DNA of 46,048 nucleotides from Methanobrevibacter sp. UBA412 (GTDB lineage: Archaea > Methanobacteriota > Methanobacteria > Methanobacteriales > Methanobacteriaceae), in contig DAGJ01000009.1 in assembly GCA_002495685.1 (NCBI GenBank), forward strand, positions 1-46,048, written 5' to 3'. Under the pieces are notes generated by a model. The model did no database searches and was not told the DNA's origin. It worked only from the letters and a program-made list of their open reading frames with translations. Made by a program: the position numbers and the translations under genes. Positions 1,435-14,923 of the stretch are shown here, piece after piece; the first letter of the stretch is position 1, and each line of letters opens with the position of its first letter.

Positions 1435-3213
1435 TTATTCTAATTTTAAATAGTAATATTCGCCTTGTTCTTTTTGTTCTCTATCAAGGTAACTATCTAA
1501 TTTATTAACTCTTGGACGTTTTGTTTCTTTATCCCGTCTAAATGTTATGTTTAAATCTTTTAAAAATATATTCATTGAAGTTCTAAGATCGGAGGGTGCT
1601 GTTGCATTACCATTTAATCCTGGTTCTCCTTGGAATACCATTGCTCTGTCTGATACATAATCGATAAATACTATATCGTGGTCTATGATTAATGAAGCAG
1701 CATTTTTACTTTCTACGATTTTGCTTATTGTTCTTCCTGCGGTTAATCTTTGTTCTACATCCAAAAATGCTGTTGGTTCATCAAATAAGTATATATCAGC
1801 ATCTTTTGCTAAAGTTGTTGCTACAGCAACTCTTTGTAATTCTCCTCCACTTAAATCTTTAATATTTTTATCTAATAATTCATCAAGTGCAAATGGTTTT
1901 CCTATTTCACTTTTAAATATATTTGAACCGTAAGTTGGTGCATTCATATATAAGAAGCTTTCTACTGTGCCTTCAAAGTCTGAAACAATATATTGAGGTT
2001 TGTAAGCTATTTTAACTTTTTGTTCTACTCTACCTTTGTTTGCTTCTTCTTCACCGGCTAATATTTTTGCAAATGTTGTTTTTCCCATTCCATTGGATCC
2101 AAATGCTGTTACTATTTCGTCATGATAGATTTCTCCAGCTTTTGCATTTAATTCAAATCCTTTAAATTTTTTATTAATATCAGAATAGTTGGTTAATATG
2201 TTTCCTTCATCTTCAGGGGTTGGTGGTCTTATATCAAATTCTATGGGTTTATTTCGTATTCTTACATTTTCTTCTTTTAGGAATCCGTTAATGTAAGCAT
2301 TTATTCCTACTCTTACTCCTTTCATACTTGAAACTACACCATATGCTCCAGGTTGGCCGTATAATACATGAATGTTATCACTTAATGCATCTAATGTTGC
2401 AAGATCGTGTTCTATGATTAATACTGTTTTGTTATCTTCTGCTAGTGATCTTATTACTTTGGTTGCATTTATTCTTTGTCTCACATCTAACCATGATGTA
2501 GGTTCATCAAAGTAGTAAAAATCACCTTCTCGTAGTACGGTTGCTGCTATGGCTACTTTTTGAAGTTCTCCTCCACTGAGGTTTTTCATATCTCTTTCTA
2601 AGACACTTTCTAAGTCTAAATTTTCTACTATGTAATCAAATTGGTTTCTTTCATCTACATTAGTTAGTAATGTTTTTACGTTACCTTTAACTACTTTAGG
2701 TAGTTGGTCTACCATTTGTGGTTTGTGTATTGTTTTTATTTCTCCTTTTTGTAAACTTTTGAAGTAATTTTGTAATGAAGAACCCTTGTAATATTCTATT
2801 ACTTCTTCCCAATTTCCTGGTTTTTCAAAGTTTCCTAAATTTGGTATTATTTCTCCTGAAAGTATGTTCATTATTGTGGATTTTCCTATTCCATTTTGTC
2901 CAAGTAAACCAACTACTTTTCCTTGTTTTAGTGTTGGTAATCCGAATAATTCAAATTGATTTTGTCCAAATCGGTGTATTGGGTCTTCTAATGCTTCTGG
3001 TAAATTTATTACTTTTATTGCTTCAAATGGACATCTATTTGTGCAAATTCCACATCCAGAACATAGTTCTTCAGATATTAATGGTTTTTTATTGTTTTCA
3101 TCTATTACTATTGTGTCTTCATCCATTCGGACTCCTGGACAGTACTCTATACAAACATAGTTACATTTTTTGGGTTGGCATCTATCTTGGTCTAATATAG
3201 AAATTCTACTCAT
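1435..3213 (-). CDS. abce1: ABCE1 / Rli1 ribosome-recycling ATPase
   Basis: ABCE1 splits post-termination ribosomes together with aRF1/Pelota and is essential in archaea. The 592 residues show the full architecture. The N-terminal double iron-sulfur domain begins with [15 protein letters not shown] and continues with [12 protein letters not shown]. It is followed by two ABC ATPase domains. Walker A motifs are GQNGIGKST near residue 107 and GSNGMGKTT near 372, and each domain has an LSGGEL signature (near 212 and 454) and a DEPT Walker B end. Length and motif order match archaeal ABCE1. It is transcribed alone, divergent from the peptidyl-tRNA hydrolase gene. There is no sign of damage. Confidence 0.97.
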
Positions 3214-3760: not shown

Positions 3761-3793
3761 TTAAGAATATTGTTTTTTGAAAAATTATTTTTG

Positions 3794-4477
3794 GTGATTA
3801 AAATTATTGATTGGGTTATAAAAATTGGGGGAAGTTTAGTTCCAGAAAGTGCAATATCTCTTATAAACGAATTAAAAGGAACTAATACATTACTTGTTAT
3901 TGGTGGGGGAGAATTTGCAAACTTAATTAGAAAATATGATATGGAAATAGGATTTTCTAATGATGTTACTCATGAAACTGCTATAAATTCAATGGATATT
4001 TTAGCTAAATTATTAAATGATAAATTTAATTTTACAAAATTAGCTAAAACAATTAATCAAGCAGTAAAAATATCAAATGAAGGTAAAATACCTATTTTGT
4101 TATGTTCTGAGTTATTGTTGATTGAAGATCCATTTGAACATACTTGGGATGTGACTTCTGATTCTATTGCAGCATATGTTTCACACCTCATAAATGCAAA
4201 ACTTTTAATAGCAACAAATGTAAATGGTATATATACTCGACAACCTACACTAGAGGGGTCCAAATTTATTGAAGAAATTGATGTAAAAAAACTACTAACT
4301 TTTGAAGAATCATCAATAGACTTAATGTTGCCCTCTACTTTAATACGATTCGAGTCTGATTGTTACATTGTTAATGGAAACTTTCCTAAGAGAGTTTTAT
4401 CAATAATTACAAATCAAGGGAACTTTGATGCGTTCCCATATACATATATTAAAGGTGATAAAAAATGGAAAAAATAA
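3794..4477 (+). CDS. mfnE: Amino-acid-kinase-fold kinase, probably MfnE of methanofuran synthesis
   Basis: The protein has the amino acid kinase fold: KIGGSL at the N-terminus, the glycine loop VIGGGEFA, and the nucleotide-site segment [10 protein letters not shown]. In methanogens this short branch includes MfnE, which phosphorylates 5-(aminomethyl)furan-3-yl methyl phosphate to its diphosphate for methanofuran. The family assignment is firm; MfnE specifically is inference from family and organism. The start is uncertain: TTG at 3770, TTG at 3791 and GTG at 3794 are all open and none has a good Shine-Dalgarno; I chose the one nearest the conserved kinase start. Its last 13 bases overlap the next gene. 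Confidence 0.75.
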
Positions 4478-6981: not shown

Positions 6982-7163
6982 ATTAAAAAATTTTTTCATA
7001 AATTTTTCAAGGTATTTATTTTTTTATCATACATAATTAATAATATTTTGAATATTATTATTACTTATTTATAATAAATGTTTTTTTAATATTAAAATTT
7101 TCATGAAAATGGAGATTAATAAATAAATTATGTAGTAAGGTATTAAGATTAGGAGTGATGAAC

Positions 7164-7730
7164 TTGATTAATTATAAAATTATTGAATTATCTGAACTAA
7201 AATTTTCATTATATAAAGTTCAAAAATTTTTATTAAATTTAATTAAAAAAGAGTATGGCTTAAATTATATTCCTAAGTTTCATAAAGATATTGAATTGTT
7301 AAAAAATTTTTATATTGCTCCTGTAAGAAATACATTCTTTTTAGCTATAAATACAAAAACTAATGAAATTATTGGTTCCATTGGTATAAGAGAATATGAT
7401 CGAAAATCTGAATGTTTTGAAAATAATTTTTCAAGAAAATCAACTGCTAGTTTTTATAAAGTTTTTGTTGATGAAAAATATCGAAGAAATGGAATAGCTT
7501 CTGCTTTAGTTAAAAAAGCAGAAAAATTTTGTTATAATCAGGGATATAATGAAATATATTTACATACTCAAAATATTGTTGATGGGGCTTTGTTTTTTTG
7601 GAATAAAATGAATTTCAATATCATATTTAAAGTAAATGATAAGTTAGATACTGTGCATATGTCTAAAAATATTTATAGGGCGCCTTTAAAACTTTATGAT
7701 ATCTCATTAACTTCAATTCAAGCTAAATAA
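7164..7730 (+). CDS. GNAT-family N-acetyltransferase
   Basis: The GNAT acetyl-CoA motif A is visible as VDEKYRRNGIASALVKKAEKF, preceded by the strand ASFYKVF and followed by the motif B segment NEIYLHTQ...FFWNKMNF. The substrate cannot be predicted. The first possible starts are GTG 7155 and ATG 7158, but GGAG at 7152-7155 overlaps or abuts these and lies eight bases before TTG 7164, so I use the TTG. The gene is monocistronic between two long AT-rich spacers. Confidence 0.8.
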   Translation: MINYKIIELSELKFSLYKVQKFLLNLIKKEYGLNYIPKFHKDIELLKNFYIAPVRNTFFLAINTKTNEIIGSIGIREYDRKSECFENNFSRKSTASFYKVFVDEKYRRNGIASALVKKAEKFCYNQGYNEIYLHTQNIVDGALFFWNKMNFNIIFKVNDKLDTVHMSKNIYRAPLKLYDISLTSIQAK

Positions 7731-8196
7731 TTTATTTTATTAATATTATCATTAAATATTCATGATTTTTTCTTTTTTTATTTAAAATTTAATTTTGTAC
7801 TATTTAATTTAGTAGATATCATTTTTGGATTAATTATTTTAAATTTTAAGTTTTTTATTATTATTTTAGCTTTGTTATAAGAGAATATTCTTTTAATTTA
7901 TTAAATTTGCATTGATTTATTCTTGAATGATAAAATATTCTTATTTTAGTTTTATTTTATTTTTTTATTATTATTTTATTAATTTTTAAAAAATATAACC
8001 GATTATTAAAATCTTTTAAATAATTATTATCTAAATTTGAAGTATTACTATTTTATCTAAATTTATATTTAAATTATTACTAACAAAATCTTTATAAATG
8101 ATATTTTAATAAATAACTTAATTGTCAAGTAATTTTTAACTTAAAAATTTATTAATGGGCTTGATTTTTAATATTAATCATTTAAATAAAATATTT
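7731..8196. other. Gene-free AT-rich leader upstream of the metal-import cluster
   Basis: About 470 nt hold no credible ORF on either strand and no recognisable cobalamin riboswitch. The stretch is mostly A and T. A half-site AGTATTAC at 8041-8048 matches one arm of the inverted repeat described just downstream. A terminator for the acetyltransferase probably lies in the early T runs but is not distinct. Confidence 0.5.
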
Positions 8197-8236
8197 GTAA
8201 TACTCCATATATAAATAAAATTATAAAAAGTATTAC
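8197..8236. promoter_or_regulatory. Perfect inverted repeat flanking the TATA box of the cbiM cluster
   Basis: GTAATACT (8197-8204) and AGTATTAC (8229-8236) are exact reverse complements separated by 24 bp, with arm centres about 32 bp or three helical turns apart. Between them lies ATATATAAATA (about 8208-8218), the best TATA box of the region. A dimeric or tetrameric repressor bound here would block the promoter. A nickel- or cobalt-sensing NikR-type regulator is a reasonable guess from the genes downstream, but no regulator gene is in the window. Confidence 0.55.
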
Positions 8237-8280
8237 TTGTATTTTAAAACAGAAAAAAATAATTTGGGAGGATTAAAAAT

Positions 8281-8934
8281 ATGCATATACCTGACGGTTT
8301 TATTCCACTTTGGCAATGTGCTATTTACTATGTAATTTTAATAATTGCACTTTACTTTGCATCTAAGTGGGCACGTAATAACCTTAATGAGAAACGTATT
8401 CCTTTATTGGCTGTATTAGCAGCAGGTATATTTGCTATAATGTCAATGAACATGCCTATTCCATTTGGTACAAGTGGACATATGGTAGGTGGAACATTAG
8501 TAGCATTAGTATTTATGGCTCCAGAAGCAACAGTACTTGTATTTACAGTGGTTTTACTTGTACAAGCTTTATTCTTTGGTGATGGAGGTATCACTACTTT
8601 GGGAGCTAATGTACTTAATATGGGTATTATAGGGGGTGCAGTTGGTTTATTTACTTTTAAAGGTTTACGTAAATTTATTGGAAAATATCCTGCAATTGGA
8701 GTGGGAGCATGGCTTGCGACTTTTATAGCTGCAGAAGCTTGTGCAGTAGAAATGGCACTTGCTGGAACTTTCCCTTTAAATATAGGTTTAGCTTCTATGG
8801 GTCTTTACCATGCATTCATAGGAGTAATAGAAGCTATTTTAACAATTATTGTTATTGCTGCTCTTGAAAAATACAGACCTGACCTATTAGCTTGGAATGA
8901 TAAATCAACAAGTAAAAATGTGGAGGTTAATTAA
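8281..8934 (+). CDS. cbiM: CbiM/NikM-type substrate-specificity component of Ni/Co ECF importer
   Basis: The membrane S-component binds the metal ion. The protein starts with MHIPDGF, where the free amino end and His2 are known ligands in CbiM/NikM, and carries a second conserved His at residue 67 in [11 protein letters not shown]. About six or seven hydrophobic segments follow over 217 residues. GGGAGG a few bases upstream supports the ATG. The stop TAA is directly followed by the ATG of the next gene. Nickel or cobalt cannot be told apart from this subunit alone. Confidence 0.93.
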
Positions 8935-9216
8935 ATGAAACAAAAAGACAAAATTTTAATTGTAATTGCTATTATAGTTTGTGTTGTTTTAGCATGTCTT
9001 TCTCCTTTCATTGCATCTGGAAATCCTGATGGATTAGAAAAATCCGCAGAAGATTCTGGTGTTGGTGAAGCAAGTGCATTTTTACAATCACCATTTCCAG
9101 ATTATACTTTTGAACCATTAGGAAAATTAGGTGAAATTGGTGTTTTAATAATTGGTACATTAATAGTTTTAGCACTAGGATATGGTGTTGGGGAAATTGT
9201 TAAAAGACGGAATTAA
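8935..9216 (+). CDS. PDGLE-domain NikN/CbiN-type component of the importer
   Basis: The 93-residue protein has two membrane segments (about 7-27 and 66-86) with an extracytoplasmic loop between them. The loop carries the literal PDGLE motif at residues 31-35, then KSAEDSG and a SPFPDY segment. This PDGLE type accompanies nickel/cobalt ECF transporters and is often linked with NikM-type systems, whereas classical CbiN lacks it. The gene begins on the base after the cbiM stop, so translation is coupled. The role is to assist metal loading of the M-component. Confidence 0.88.
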   Translation: MKQKDKILIVIAIIVCVVLACLSPFIASGNPDGLEKSAEDSGVGEASAFLQSPFPDYTFEPLGKLGEIGVLIIGTLIVLALGYGVGEIVKRRN

Positions 9217-9441
9217 ATTTAAATAGGAAGAACTTAAATAAAATAGATAATAAGTTAGTTATTAATTATTTTTAACTAATTTATATTTATTTTTTAAAAA
9301 ATTTAATATTCTTTTAATTCTTAAATAAAATTAAAAAAATAATATTGAAAACTTATTTTTAATAAATAATTATTAATAAATAATGAATTTATTAACTTAA
9401 GTAATAAATTGATTATTTGTAATATGAAATGGGGTTAGTTA

Positions 9442-10278
9442 ATGGTGAATATAAATGATGCACTCGATTTGGATGTTGTAAGTGCACAAAATAATGTTAT
9501 TCATAATTTGGACGGAAGAGTAAAATTAATATCTGTACTTTTTATAATAATATATTCAGTTTTTTCTAATCAATTATTTGTCCCTATAATTTTAGAAATA
9601 TTCTTGTTAATTGTAATGGGTCTTGCAAAATTATCATTTAAAGCTTCATTTACACGTATTTTATTATTGATCCCATTTGGTGGGGCAATTATACTATTTC
9701 AACCATTTATTCATCCTGGAAATATAATATGGGTTAGTTCTATTTCATGGATTCATATTACCGATGCTGGACTTAACTGGGGAATTATTTTAATGTCTAG
9801 ATTAATTGTTTGTTTAACTGCAATAGTCATATTGTCATCTACAAGTCCAATGCAAGAAGTTGTTGAATCATTTAGAAAATTAGGAATGCCTCGAGATTTA
9901 GCCATGATTTTAAGTATTATGGTACGTTTTTTATTTATGTTTATTGATGAATTAGCACAAATAAGAAAATCACAAAAATCTAGAAACTTTGATATTCATA
10001 GTAAATTAACTCCTTATAAATGGAGAATAAAACAAGTAGGTTATACAGTAGCCATGATGTTTTTAAAATCTTATGAAAAAGGAGAAACAACATATTCAAG
10101 TATGGTAAGTAGAGGATTTTCTAATGATTCTCAATTTTATGTAAGTAGAAAGAAAATGACAAAATCAAATTATGTTTTCATAATATCTATTGTATTATTA
10201 ATTTTATTTATAGAAATTTTAGTTATATTTTATGCACCACAATTAGGATATTTTGGTTTACATTTTACAGCAACATAA
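9442..10278 (+). CDS. cbiQ: CbiQ transmembrane (T) component of ECF metal importer
   Basis: The protein couples the ATPase to CbiM. The 278 residues contain several hydrophobic helices and the coupling-helix motifs of CbiQ: RKSQKSRNFD near residue 175 and SSMVSRGF near 217. The family name energy-coupling factor T is well supported. A 225-nt AT-rich gap separates it from the PDGLE gene, so it may have its own promoter or long spacer, but strand and function place it in the same transporter. A GGGGTTAG sequence precedes the ATG. Confidence 0.92.
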   Translation: MVNINDALDLDVVSAQNNVIHNLDGRVKLISVLFIIIYSVFSNQLFVPIILEIFLLIVMGLAKLSFKASFTRILLLIPFGGAIILFQPFIHPGNIIWVSSISWIHITDAGLNWGIILMSRLIVCLTAIVILSSTSPMQEVVESFRKLGMPRDLAMILSIMVRFLFMFIDELAQIRKSQKSRNFDIHSKLTPYKWRIKQVGYTVAMMFLKSYEKGETTYSSMVSRGFSNDSQFYVSRKKMTKSNYVFIISIVLLILFIEILVIFYAPQLGYFGLHFTAT

Positions 10279-10305
10279 AGAAATAATTATTGGGAGGAAA
10301 TTATT

Positions 10306-11151
10306 ATGTCAGAACCTATTTTAGAAACTCAAGATTTAACATTCACATACCCTGATGGTACACAGGCATTAAAAAATATAAATATGAGTATTAATAAGGG
10401 AGAGAAAGTAGCAGTTATGGGGGCTAATGGTGCAGGTAAATCAACTTTATTCTCCCATTTTAATGGATTATCCCAACCAACAAGTGGGATTGTTAAAATT
10501 AATGGGGAAGAAATGAAATATGATAAAAAGAGTTTGCTTAAAATTAGGCAAAAAGTAGGGGTAGTATTTCAAAACCCTGATGACCAATTGTTTGCCCCTA
10601 CAGTTCAAGAAGATGTAGCATTTGGTCCAATGAATTTAGGTTTAGACTTAAATGAAGTGGATAAAAGAGTTGAAAAATCTTTAAAAATGGTAGGAATGGA
10701 AGGTTTTGAGGAAAAACCTCCTCATCATTTAAGTGGAGGTCAACAAAAAAGAGTGTCTATTGCAGGAATTATTGCAATGGATCCTGAATTAATGATTATT
10801 GATGAACCAACAGCAGGTTTAGATCCTCAGGGTGTTGATCAAGTTTTAACAATCCTTAATCACTTAAATGAAAAGGGCATGACTTTGCTTGTTTCTTCTC
10901 ATAATGTTGAACTTATAACAGAATTTGCAAATAAAATTTTTATTGTTCATGATGGTGAAATTATTAATGAAGGATCTACTAATGATGTATTTTCTAATCA
11001 TGAAATTCTAAAAAAAGCACATTTAAGACCTCCAAAAGCTAGTGAAATATTACATAAGTTGCAAAAAGAGGGGTTAAATGTCCAACCTAATAAATTAACT
11101 ACTCAAGAAGCCTGTGATGAAATTATTAAAGCTAAATTAAGCAATCATTAA
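10306..11151 (+). CDS. cbiO: CbiO ATP-binding component of ECF metal importer
   Basis: The ABC ATPase has Walker A GANGAGKST near residue 40, Q-loop FQNPDDQLFAP (the Q-x-x-D-D-Q form typical of ECF ATPases), signature LSGGQQKRV and Walker B LMIIDEPTAGLDP with a switch histidine in SSHNVEL. The length of 281 residues is usual, including a C-terminal extension after about 220. GGGAGG stands eight bases before the ATG. It lies 27 nt after cbiQ and 26 nt before the nicotianamine-synthase-like gene. Confidence 0.95.
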   Translation: MSEPILETQDLTFTYPDGTQALKNINMSINKGEKVAVMGANGAGKSTLFSHFNGLSQPTSGIVKINGEEMKYDKKSLLKIRQKVGVVFQNPDDQLFAPTVQEDVAFGPMNLGLDLNEVDKRVEKSLKMVGMEGFEEKPPHHLSGGQQKRVSIAGIIAMDPELMIIDEPTAGLDPQGVDQVLTILNHLNEKGMTLLVSSHNVELITEFANKIFIVHDGEIINEGSTNDVFSNHEILKKAHLRPPKASEILHKLQKEGLNVQPNKLTTQEACDEIIKAKLSNH

Positions 11152-11177
11152 TTAAATTTTTATGGAGTTGTTATTAT

Positions 11178-11999
11178 ATGAGTTGTTGGAAATATTGGCC
11201 AAAAATTGAGGAAATTGCTGAAAAACTTGAAGAATATGGTGTTGATTCTTTAAATGATTTAAATACTTTAGATGATGTGAATTTAAATGAAATCACCATT
11301 TTATTGGATGAAATCGAAGTTATTGCTCATGATGAAGAAATTGATTTTGATTCAGCAAAACATATATTAGATAATGTTCGGATGAATAAAGCATTAAAAC
11401 TTATCAGAAAATTTTATTTATATATTGGTGCAAGATTAGAAACTGAAAATGCTATGGATATTATTCAATCTAAAGACCCTTATCAAACTTTAGATACTTT
11501 TCATTTTTATGAAAGATATGAAGGTTTATTAATTAATGAATCTAAATTAGCTAAGTTTAGTAAAGATAAAACCTTTGTGTTTATTGGTAGTGGACCATTA
11601 CCTCTTACATTAATATTATTTAGACAAGCATTTGGTTGTAATTGCATTGGTATTGAAATTCAAGAAGATGTTGCTGAATTATCTCGTGAGGTTATAGCTA
11701 AATTAGGATTATCTGCTGGTATTAAAATTGTTGTTGGTGATGAGACTAAATTAAAAGATCTTGATTATGATATTGTGATGGTTGCAGCATTTGCTATTCC
11801 TAAAGATAAAGTTTTTGCTAATGTTTGGGAAACTGTTGATATAAATACTCCAGTTCTTGTTAGAACTTATAGTGGTATGCGAGCTATTCTTTATGCTCCA
11901 TTAACTGATAAAGATATAAGAGGATTTCATAAAGAGGTTATGCTTTTACCTATAGGAAATACTAACAATACAAGTGTATTACTTAGAAAAGTAGTTTAA
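11178..11999 (+). CDS. Nicotianamine synthase-like protein (thermonicotianamine-type metallophore)
   Basis: The 273-residue protein belongs to the nicotianamine synthase family, whose archaeal member from Methanothermobacter condenses aminopropyl/carboxypropyl groups from SAM with glutamate to make a nicotianamine-like chelator. The SAM-binding Rossmann motif FIGSGPLPLT spans about 135-144. Glu88 and Tyr114 keep the 26-residue spacing I recall for the catalytic Glu/Tyr pair of the archaeal enzyme. It follows cbiO by 26 nt with GGAG upstream, so it is very likely in the metal-import operon. A product that chelates nickel or cobalt is inference. It ends 8 nt from a convergent gene. Confidence 0.88.
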   Translation: MSCWKYWPKIEEIAEKLEEYGVDSLNDLNTLDDVNLNEITILLDEIEVIAHDEEIDFDSAKHILDNVRMNKALKLIRKFYLYIGARLETENAMDIIQSKDPYQTLDTFHFYERYEGLLINESKLAKFSKDKTFVFIGSGPLPLTLILFRQAFGCNCIGIEIQEDVAELSREVIAKLGLSAGIKIVVGDETKLKDLDYDIVMVAAFAIPKDKVFANVWETVDINTPVLVRTYSGMRAILYAPLTDKDIRGFHKEVMLLPIGNTNNTSVLLRKVV

Positions 12000-12007
12000 A
12001 TATTTTT

Positions 12008-13303
12008 TCATATCTTAAACTTTCTATTTTTTATTAAAATTACTAAGTATATGAATAATCCTATTATGAAATATAATATAACTTGAATGTCTAATATTCC
12101 TGTTTCTACTCCAAGTATTGTGTAAGTTAATAATAATGCATATATGAATAAGTAAAATGAATTTTTAGTTTTTTCCACTATTTTAAATCCTATTCCTAAT
12201 ATAAAACCTATTAATCCCATTCCGATTGCAACACCTATTCTTCCAAAATCTACAATCATTGGTCCTATTATTGTAGGTGTTACTGTAACTTCACTTCTCC
12301 AAGCTATTAGTTTTCCAATCATCATTCTGGGTCCAAGAGCACTACCTGGTAGTGAGCTAGCTATTAGTTTTCCATGTAATAATCCATAATCTCCGGATAC
12401 ACTATTTATTAGATTTAATACATGTAATGTGAAATCTGCTCTTGATTGTAATGTTGATATTGGGCTTGCTCCTTTTGTTATAGTTCCTTCTTCAATTACA
12501 CGATAATAACCAATTCCTACAATTGCACCTATACCAATTAATGCAGCTATTACAACTTCCCATAGAGAAAGTATTTCTCCATAATATCCCATGATTATAA
12601 GGAGTAATAAAACTGCAAGTAGCGGGGTTCTATAAGCTAAAGTTAAAAATATGACTGCACTAATCATAAACAGAATTAAAAATCTGAATCTAACTTGAGT
12701 TCTTGAAATAATATTTTTTTTATAATCCATTAAATAACAGCTTGCTATCATTCCAATTCCAGGTATCATTAAAAATATAGGCATTGTTAATGCAGGAGAA
12801 AGTTTATATCTTAAACTTGAATGGATTATAGGTAATCCTCCAGCTTTACCTATACAAAGAATAAAGAATATTAATCCGAGTAATATCAGGCAGAATCCTA
12901 TTGAATATATTTCTTTTCTTTTAAAATTAAATAATTCAATATCTTTGTTTAACAAGTATTTTGGTATTAATTTTGCACCTATAAAAAAGGTTAAAAATGC
13001 TATTAAAAGATTTATTTCTAAACTCCAACTTACAGGGGTAAAAGAAAGAAGTAAAAATATGGTAAATACAACGATTACAATCAATGGACTAAATAGATAT
13101 TTATTCAATATTTTACTTTTTTTAAAGAAAGATAAAAAGTTTTCTTTAGGATAAAAACTTTTAAAAAAACTGTTGATCCATGCATCTTCAAAATATTTTA
13201 AAATATTAAATATAGTAATGAATAAGAATGATTCTTTTACTTTACTTGTAATACTTTCTGTAATATGGGTTAATATATTATAAATGGTGCTCATATTTTT
13301 CAC
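12008..13303 (-). CDS. Polytopic membrane protein, probable polysaccharide repeat-unit polymerase
   Basis: The 431 residues contain about ten or eleven hydrophobic segments and a large loop between about 275 and 340. That loop holds SRADFTLHVLN, LIASSLPG and TVTPTIIGPMIVDFGRIG, the pattern of the O-antigen/oligosaccharide repeat-unit polymerase family, which joins lipid-linked oligosaccharides at the membrane. The family call is moderate because such proteins diverge strongly. It is the third gene of a tight minus-strand set, 16 nt after the DUF4330-like gene. Confidence 0.65.
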   Translation of the reverse strand: MKNMSTIYNILTHITESITSKVKESFLFITIFNILKYFEDAWINSFFKSFYPKENFLSFFKKSKILNKYLFSPLIVIVVFTIFLLLSFTPVSWSLEINLLIAFLTFFIGAKLIPKYLLNKDIELFNFKRKEIYSIGFCLILLGLIFFILCIGKAGGLPIIHSSLRYKLSPALTMPIFLMIPGIGMIASCYLMDYKKNIISRTQVRFRFLILFMISAVIFLTLAYRTPLLAVLLLLIIMGYYGEILSLWEVVIAALIGIGAIVGIGYYRVIEEGTITKGASPISTLQSRADFTLHVLNLINSVSGDYGLLHGKLIASSLPGSALGPRMMIGKLIAWRSEVTVTPTIIGPMIVDFGRIGVAIGMGLIGFILGIGFKIVEKTKNSFYLFIYALLLTYTILGVETGILDIQVILYFIIGLFIYLVILIKNRKFKI

Positions 13304-14449: not shown

Positions 14450-14536
<87 letters not shown>

Positions 14537-14619: not shown

Positions 14620-14692
14620 GCCTTAGTGGCTCAGCCGGTAGAGCGCCACCTTGGTAAGGTGGAAGTCGGGGGTTCGAATCCCCCCTAAGGCT
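14620..14692 (+). tRNA. tRNA-Thr (anticodon GGU)
   Basis: Acceptor arms GCCTTAG (14620-14626) and CTAAGGC (14685-14691) pair perfectly; the anticodon stem CCACC/GGTGG encloses the loop TTGGTAA, giving GGU. The T-arm GGGGGTTCGAATCCCCC is complete. CCA is not encoded and no intron is present. Confidence 0.97.
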
Positions 14693-14923
14693 CTTAATTT
14701 TTGGAGAATTTACTTATTTCATATTTTAATAACTATTTTTTACAGTACTAATTTTATATTAATCAAATAATTTCTTAATTTATTTTAAAAATAGATAATT
14801 TTATTAATTTATAAAACAAATATATAAAAGAATATAAAATTTTACATTTAAACACCAAAAAATCATAAGAGAATTATGATTATTTTATTAAAAAAAGTAT
14901 AATAGACTTTATTGGAGGGTAAA

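Follow-up and report, generated by a model that had tools for sequence, protein, structure and literature searches.

A nicotianamine synthase-family gene beside an energy-coupling factor importer in Methanobrevibacter, a candidate member of a nickel-limitation regulon in Methanobacteria

What does a nicotianamine synthase (NAS) do in a methanogen, and what does it mean that its gene stands directly behind a metal importer? To our knowledge, archaeal NAS has no settled function in vivo. The question is raised by contig DAGJ01000009.1 of Methanobrevibacter sp. UBA412 (assembly GCA_002495685.1), whose first 46,048 nt, the whole stretch analysed and hereafter called the window, carry a NAS-family gene downstream of an energy-coupling factor (ECF) importer annotated as cbiMNQO. 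We propose, with a probability of about 60% and from sequence comparison, that in Methanobacteria NAS is part of a regulon for nickel limitation and that, when the metal runs short, it produces a ligand for nickel. The evidence consists of a recurrent set of neighbouring genes and, above all, of a paired-palindrome DNA element that they share.

The NAS gene occupies positions 11178–11999 (+), 26 nt downstream of cbiO on the same strand, and has its own GGAG at 11164–11167 (+), the likely ribosome-binding site, just as the initial annotation of this DNA had described. Its product scores 74 bits against PF03059 in a Pfam profile search (cut-off 27.1) and matches the solved sequence of MtNAS (MTH675, thermonicotianamine synthase, PDB 3FPE) at 271 bits (E 8.5e-80, 51% identity); the nearest named protein among the matches listed is from Methanobrevibacter sp. 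AbM4 (85%). It holds the motif FIGSGPLPLT, and its Glu88 and Tyr114, invariant in an alignment of nine sequences, align with Glu81 and Tyr107 of MtNAS; the family assignment and the residues named earlier were confirmed. The equivalent catalytic residues of AtNAS1 are essential according to the available part of PMC10248798. By family membership, the enzyme would join aminobutyrate units of S-adenosylmethionine into a nicotianamine-type ligand.

Upstream of NAS lie all four components of an ECF importer, putatively of the nickel NikMNQO type: the substrate-binding membrane subunit CbiM, probably NikM (8281–8934, +; PF01891, 190 bits), the N subunit CbiN of the PDGLE family (8935–9216, +; PF13190, 59.1 bits), the transmembrane coupling subunit CbiQ (9442–10278, +; PF02361, with TIGR02454 over its cut-off) and the ATPase CbiO (10306–11151, +; PF00005, with TIGR01166 over its cut-off). 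NAS most likely shares an operon with the importer, a single cbiM-to-NAS transcript being uncertain because 225 nt separate cbiN and cbiQ.

To place this arrangement, we surveyed NAS across the class. PF03059 matched 104 of 151 class genomes (102 over the cut-off), and 100 NAS regions from 99 of these 104 genomes were labelled (G024, G051, G075, G080 and G152 were left out; G and L numbers are our genomes and loci), using profiles built on earlier clusters with the window proteins among the seeds. Because the genomes are related, these counts cannot be taken as independent events; how many separate origins there were was estimated visually from the NAS tree. Cbi components lie within 9 kb of NAS in only six of the 100 regions (CbiM in L113, L114, L116 and L138; CbiO/CbiQ without CbiM in L169 and L183), which rules out NAS–cbiMNQO as a conserved operon. 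Outside the set, CbiM, CbiQ and CbiO stand beside NAS in L058, labelled Peptococcaceae bacterium. The broader claim that NAS is linked to metal import fared better, in that the link recurs in another form, 23 regions having NikA/CntA-like ABC importer genes no more than 8 kb from NAS; the particular adjacency to cbiMNQO is rare. Heavy-metal P-type ATPases are found within 5 kb in nine regions, exceeding the cut-off of that class, and a GNAT acetyltransferase gene lies within 3 kb in 38. The substrate-binding protein (SBP) of the ABC importer has NikA as its best profile and CntA as the next, both scores being under the cut-offs. In addition, eight regions, each of which also has the ABC genes, carry a MATE-family transporter of 78–100% identity; one further copy is a fragment, and more distant members occur in five other NAS regions. 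RLI, a ribosome-recycling factor by its domains to which we assign no metal meaning, neighbours NAS in eight regions, and 48 have no scored neighbour, 16 of these with less than 3 kb of flank on one side. On the NAS tree (97 rows), visual inspection puts the Cbi neighbours at several distinct positions and the ABC neighbours at no fewer than four, some branches being long and weakly supported.

The distances between genes point the same way. NAS and an SBP_bac_5 gene lie within 6 kb in at least 22 of 76 genomes with both listed, where about 1.1 would be expected within 10 kb, which is the neighbour link with metal import elsewhere whose absence would have spoken against the earlier proposal. 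Of the 84 genomes in which NAS and GNAT are both listed, at least 34 have them within 2 kb of each other (expectation within 10 kb, about 1.2), further GNAT neighbours being present in G147, G148, G149 and G151, and GNAT and SBP lie within 6 kb in at least 61 of 81; all three counts are lower bounds, about 150 matches having been listed for each of SBP and GNAT, with a mean of at least 1.5 listed SBP_bac_5 copies per positive genome. NAS and GNAT also co-occur: both are present in 92 of the 151 genomes, NAS only in 10, GNAT only in 20 and neither in 29 (Fisher p 3e-10, uncorrected for kinship and not counting two weak matches per family).

The window has its own member of this GNAT family at 7155–7730 (+; PF00583, 54.5 bits; alternative start ATG at 7158). 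It is 35–50% identical to 13 relatives, with 23 invariant columns in the alignment, and deviates from the consensus at some motifs. Its predicted structure (mean pLDDT 85.3) is a plain GNAT fold with 3d8p as the best match (TM 0.71), and this comparison gave no hint of a substrate. We suggest that GNAT would acylate the NAS product; some bacterial zincophore clusters carry acetyltransferases of unclear role, according to the part of PMC7438024 available. The exact MtNAS gene (263/263 residues) is our locus L127, where GNAT is a neighbour as in the relatives; there NAS is divergent from GNAT and precedes genes for an FmdE-domain protein and CobN, whereas the window NAS follows cbiO. In G145 (C1:990243-990850) and G152 (C1:992928-993535) NAS is in two pieces with the GNAT neighbour still present, and in both genomes the CobN near NAS is broken as well. 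An equation of the CobN beside NAS with the CobN1 of PMC12350162 was considered and dropped; the eight genomes searched have several CobN copies. In L137, L142, L146, L149, L151, L152 and L162 the cluster holds two copies of GNAT, the second placed after its SBP-permB-permC genes.

What joins these genes is a DNA element. In the window a candidate operator, GTAATACT-N24-AGTATTAC, with exact arms and conserved in relatives, lies at 8197–8236, 44 nt before cbiM, and its spacer holds TATATAAAT. Its first base is also the coordinate at which the initial annotation started, the palindrome itself not being mentioned there. An imperfect copy with two arm mismatches and a spacer of 23 lies at 8042–8080, and four further sites with three mismatches elsewhere in the window look like background. 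Some 5.5% of shuffled versions of this region hold any 8-nt inverted repeat with at least two G/C in the arm. The general form of the element is GTAWTAC-N25/26-GTAWTAC, 39–40 bp long. Allowing two mismatches and a spacer of 23 or 24, we found 80 sites in the 102 NAS-bearing sequences, compared with 4, 1, 3, 2 and 1 for five permutations of the arms, and exact pairs of the general form numbered 58 in NAS-bearing regions, five control palindromes giving 1, 0, 0, 0 and 0. The half-sites are 32 nt apart in 54 cases and 31 nt in 10. Across all 151 genomes, exact arms with a spacer of 2–30 occurred in 82, against three for the reversed pattern.

The genes behind these sites are those of the survey. 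The 80 sites gave gene–site pairs with NAS (25), GNAT (24), P-type ATPase (19), SBP (15), NikD (5), CbiM (4), permB (1) and other genes (9), a site between divergent genes counting for both and eight of the nine 'other' sites also preceding SBP. Half-sites within 300 nt upstream in NAS-bearing regions were found for 36/46 GNAT, 24/28 SBP, 9/11 P-type ATPase, 40/105 NAS, 9/26 NikD and 0/10 RLI genes, and for 74/1072 other genes; with the control palindromes the figures were 2–8/105 for NAS and 21–83/1072 for other genes. Of 46 regions with a metal or GNAT neighbour, 30 have an exact 8-nt half-site in front of NAS or GNAT, and so do 21 of the 56 regions that lack such a neighbour; NAS can therefore carry the element in their absence. 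The wider link of NAS is the shared operator and the GNAT partner, rather than adjacency to cbiMNQO.

The same element marks the importer. Full sites precede 15 of 20 cbiM genes picked without regard to sites (controls 0), and by orthology they are found at 11/11 cbiM of at least 77% identity and at 4/9 of the remainder; among 16 regions fetched for having a site, 10 have it upstream of an orthologous cbiM. A TATA-like spacer at six of nine cbiM sites, compared with 27% of shuffled spacers, is suggestive only. In three loci (L210, 4421–7848, also L220 and L221) the operator is followed, at a distance of about 400 nt, by a series of small open reading frames, three of which had no Pfam match when tested. 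Sites with three mismatches were also seen before FmdE-domain genes at seven loci; there was no control, and these sites were not used.

Which metal, then, does the importer carry? At locus L226 a CbiM 57% identical to that of the window has, as its divergent neighbours, the subunits of carbon monoxide dehydrogenase/acetyl-CoA synthase (CODH/ACS), and the M. thermautotrophicus operon MTH1704-1707 (CbiM1N1O1Q1), next to the CODH/ACS complex, is proposed as NikMNOQ in the available part of PMC3087415. Judged by L226, this operon is orthologous to the window importer, which is thus probably nikMNQO; unlike the window importer, it has no NAS beside it. The paralogous CbiM loci L227–L229, 30–35% identical to the window CbiM, have no exact site. 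A second sign of nickel comes from hmd, the gene of a nickel-free hydrogenase that serves under nickel shortage. At L224 a site of 38 nt is found between hmd and an FeGP-cofactor gene, and among 20 hand-picked hmd regions (L293 being too short) an exact half-site lies within 350 nt upstream in 16 of 19 usable ones, against one control hit, or in 15 of 18 without G001 (L309), which was known beforehand to have a site. In M. marburgensis, nickel limitation leads to a rise in Hmd and HcgG, as reported in the part of PMC12350162 available to us. Taken from orthology and operator positions, the metal of the regulon would be nickel.

The leading, unproven candidate for the regulator at the element is NikR or a relative, a NikR_C match being present in 138 of the 151 genomes. 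In delta-proteobacteria the sites of NikR read GTGTTAC-N13/14-GTAACAC in both orientations, nikMQO-type importers are among the targets and a nickel-free hydrogenase is also predicted to be controlled (PMC545781, in its available part); their half-sites resemble the methanobacterial GTATTAC/GTAATAC. Loci of nikR itself hold a site at three or fewer mismatches in 12 of 30 cases, against 0–4 for controls, and an exact pair in none of 30.

Several observations weigh against the assignment to a nickel-limitation regulon. The spacer of the delta-proteobacterial sites in that same part of PMC545781 is N13/14, compared with N25/26 here, the preferred distance of 32 nt corresponding to N25. The nikM–cdhA gap of L226 has no full site, single half-sites only. 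A first hmd set (L230–L259) had a site in 2 of 30 loci against 0–4 for controls, i.e. no enrichment, and even in the hand-picked set exact pairs precede hmd in only four of 20 regions. Among the CbiM genes of NAS regions a half-site precedes 2/6 (controls 0–2/6), and no operator site was found within 300 nt upstream of the window GNAT. The transporters named as raised under nickel limitation in the available part of PMC12350162 are MTBMA_c10530 and MTBMA_c10830, not the operon MTBMA_c02830-02860. Finally, the NCBIfam name of the window CbiM, scored over its cut-off, is cobalt transporter, and in L111 (9106–12614), one of the 48 regions without a scored neighbour, NAS is preceded by znuA, an ABC ATPase gene, a znuB-type permease gene and a DUF3194 gene.

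Under the nickel reading, we envisage that when nickel is scarce a repressor, putatively NikR or a relative, would leave GTAWTAC-N25/26-GTAWTAC, whereupon the ECF importer would be made and, in the window, NAS most likely co-read; NAS would then supply a small nicotianamine-type ligand that helps nickel acquisition. For the relatives we consider it probable that GNAT modifies this ligand and that its nickel complex enters through the NikA/CntA-like ABC importer. A more specific and tentative form of this is a secreted nickelophore, in which an acylated product of NAS and its dedicated GNAT would be exported (by MATE in some species) and re-imported as the nickel complex through the NikA/CntA-like ABC importer, nickel starvation derepressing the gene set through the 39–40 bp operator. 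The closest parallels are the opine metallophores staphylopine and pseudopaline (CntL, CntM, importer), which like the window relatives combine a NAS-type enzyme with a binding-protein-dependent ABC importer. Those systems have an opine dehydrogenase, in place of which the methanobacterial regions may have GNAT, and the window NAS scores 39.7 against the CntL model, whose cut-off is 350. The opine dehydrogenase CntM (PF10100) matched none of the 151 class genomes, but also none of 14 control genomes.

How, alternatively, might the ligand act without leaving the cell? The ECF importer would then admit the free nickel ion, and this ion would be buffered by the NAS product or passed on by it to hydrogenases, methyl-coenzyme M reductase or CODH. 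This is the view of the initial annotation with regulation by nickel added, and we regard it as possible but doubtful. ECF importers bind bare ions, and it is to such an importer that NAS is linked in the window; likewise eight genomes of the MtNAS type, G145–G152, have NAS (split in G145 and G152) and no SBP_bac_5 match, an arrangement that fits cytosolic holding. Set against this are the NikA/CntA-like genes near NAS in the 23 regions counted above and the MATE transporter, found together with them in all eight of its regions; where a binding-protein-dependent importer is present, export and re-import are at least as plausible. Moreover, bacterial NAS-type products serve uptake from outside, according to the available part of PMC7438024. 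On balance we lean slightly towards export and re-import over purely cytosolic nickel holding.

It is unlikely that the regulon and its ligand serve another metal, such as cobalt or zinc, or several, with the signs of nickel incidental. Such a role would agree with the cobalt of the database names, the znuA-znuC-znuB genes before NAS in L111, the FmdE-domain and CobN genes beside NAS in L127 and the several metals bound by known NAS-type ligands (PMC7438024, available part), but not with the orthology of the window importer to the operon beside CODH/ACS, the half-sites before hmd or the paralogous CbiM loci devoid of an exact site. That the cbiO–NAS adjacency is a chance rearrangement of no functional meaning is very improbable, for although 17 of 18 rows of one neighbouring clade in the NAS tree have no scored neighbours and RLI and a second gene are common to the window and to regions with NAS next to RLI, cbiO and NAS lie 26 nt apart on one strand, Cbi neighbours occur also in L169, L138, L113, L114, L116 and the bacterial L058, and NAS carries the element elsewhere.

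Other features of the window and its relatives may be recorded here. The RLI/ABCE1-type gene (1435–3213, −) and the second gene (3770–4477, +) have relatives near NAS in the regions where NAS directly follows RLI; the window thus seems to share their chromosomal neighbourhood, its NAS being about 8 kb from RLI. Downstream of NAS is a PF01901 (O-antigen-polymerase-like) gene (12008–13303, −); in L218 (6258–7544) a member of this family lies immediately before cbiMNQO, a place taken by open reading frames of similar size in L219, L223, L224 and L225. The window also has tRNA-Leu (14450–14533) and tRNA-Thr (14620–14693) genes. A sigma-70 promoter scan, not meant for archaea, found 44 promoters against 45.1 expected. 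Two small proteins flank CbiM near NAS in L113 (10725–12387), L116 (13440–15115) and L057 (1394–3122), for which a family search gave no convincing match.

The individual parts of this picture are already known, and archaeal NAS was previously named a metal-uptake candidate in oral Methanobrevibacter (PMC8485483, available part). Our literature search, incomplete in coverage, found no paper on archaeal NAS gene neighbours, the NAS–GNAT pairing, this operator or the nickel assignment. No archaeal metallophore pathway is known to us, so that a secreted nickelophore, if true, would be the first, an acetyltransferase replacing the opine dehydrogenase; the GNAT partner offers a clue to the chemical nature of the product. 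Because nickel import and, in some of the genomes examined, hmd carry the shared operator as well, starving culturable methanogens of nickel is a way to test what archaeal NAS does. Methanogenesis is limited by nickel, and a ligand that scavenges or holds nickel would bear on methane production in guts and sediments.

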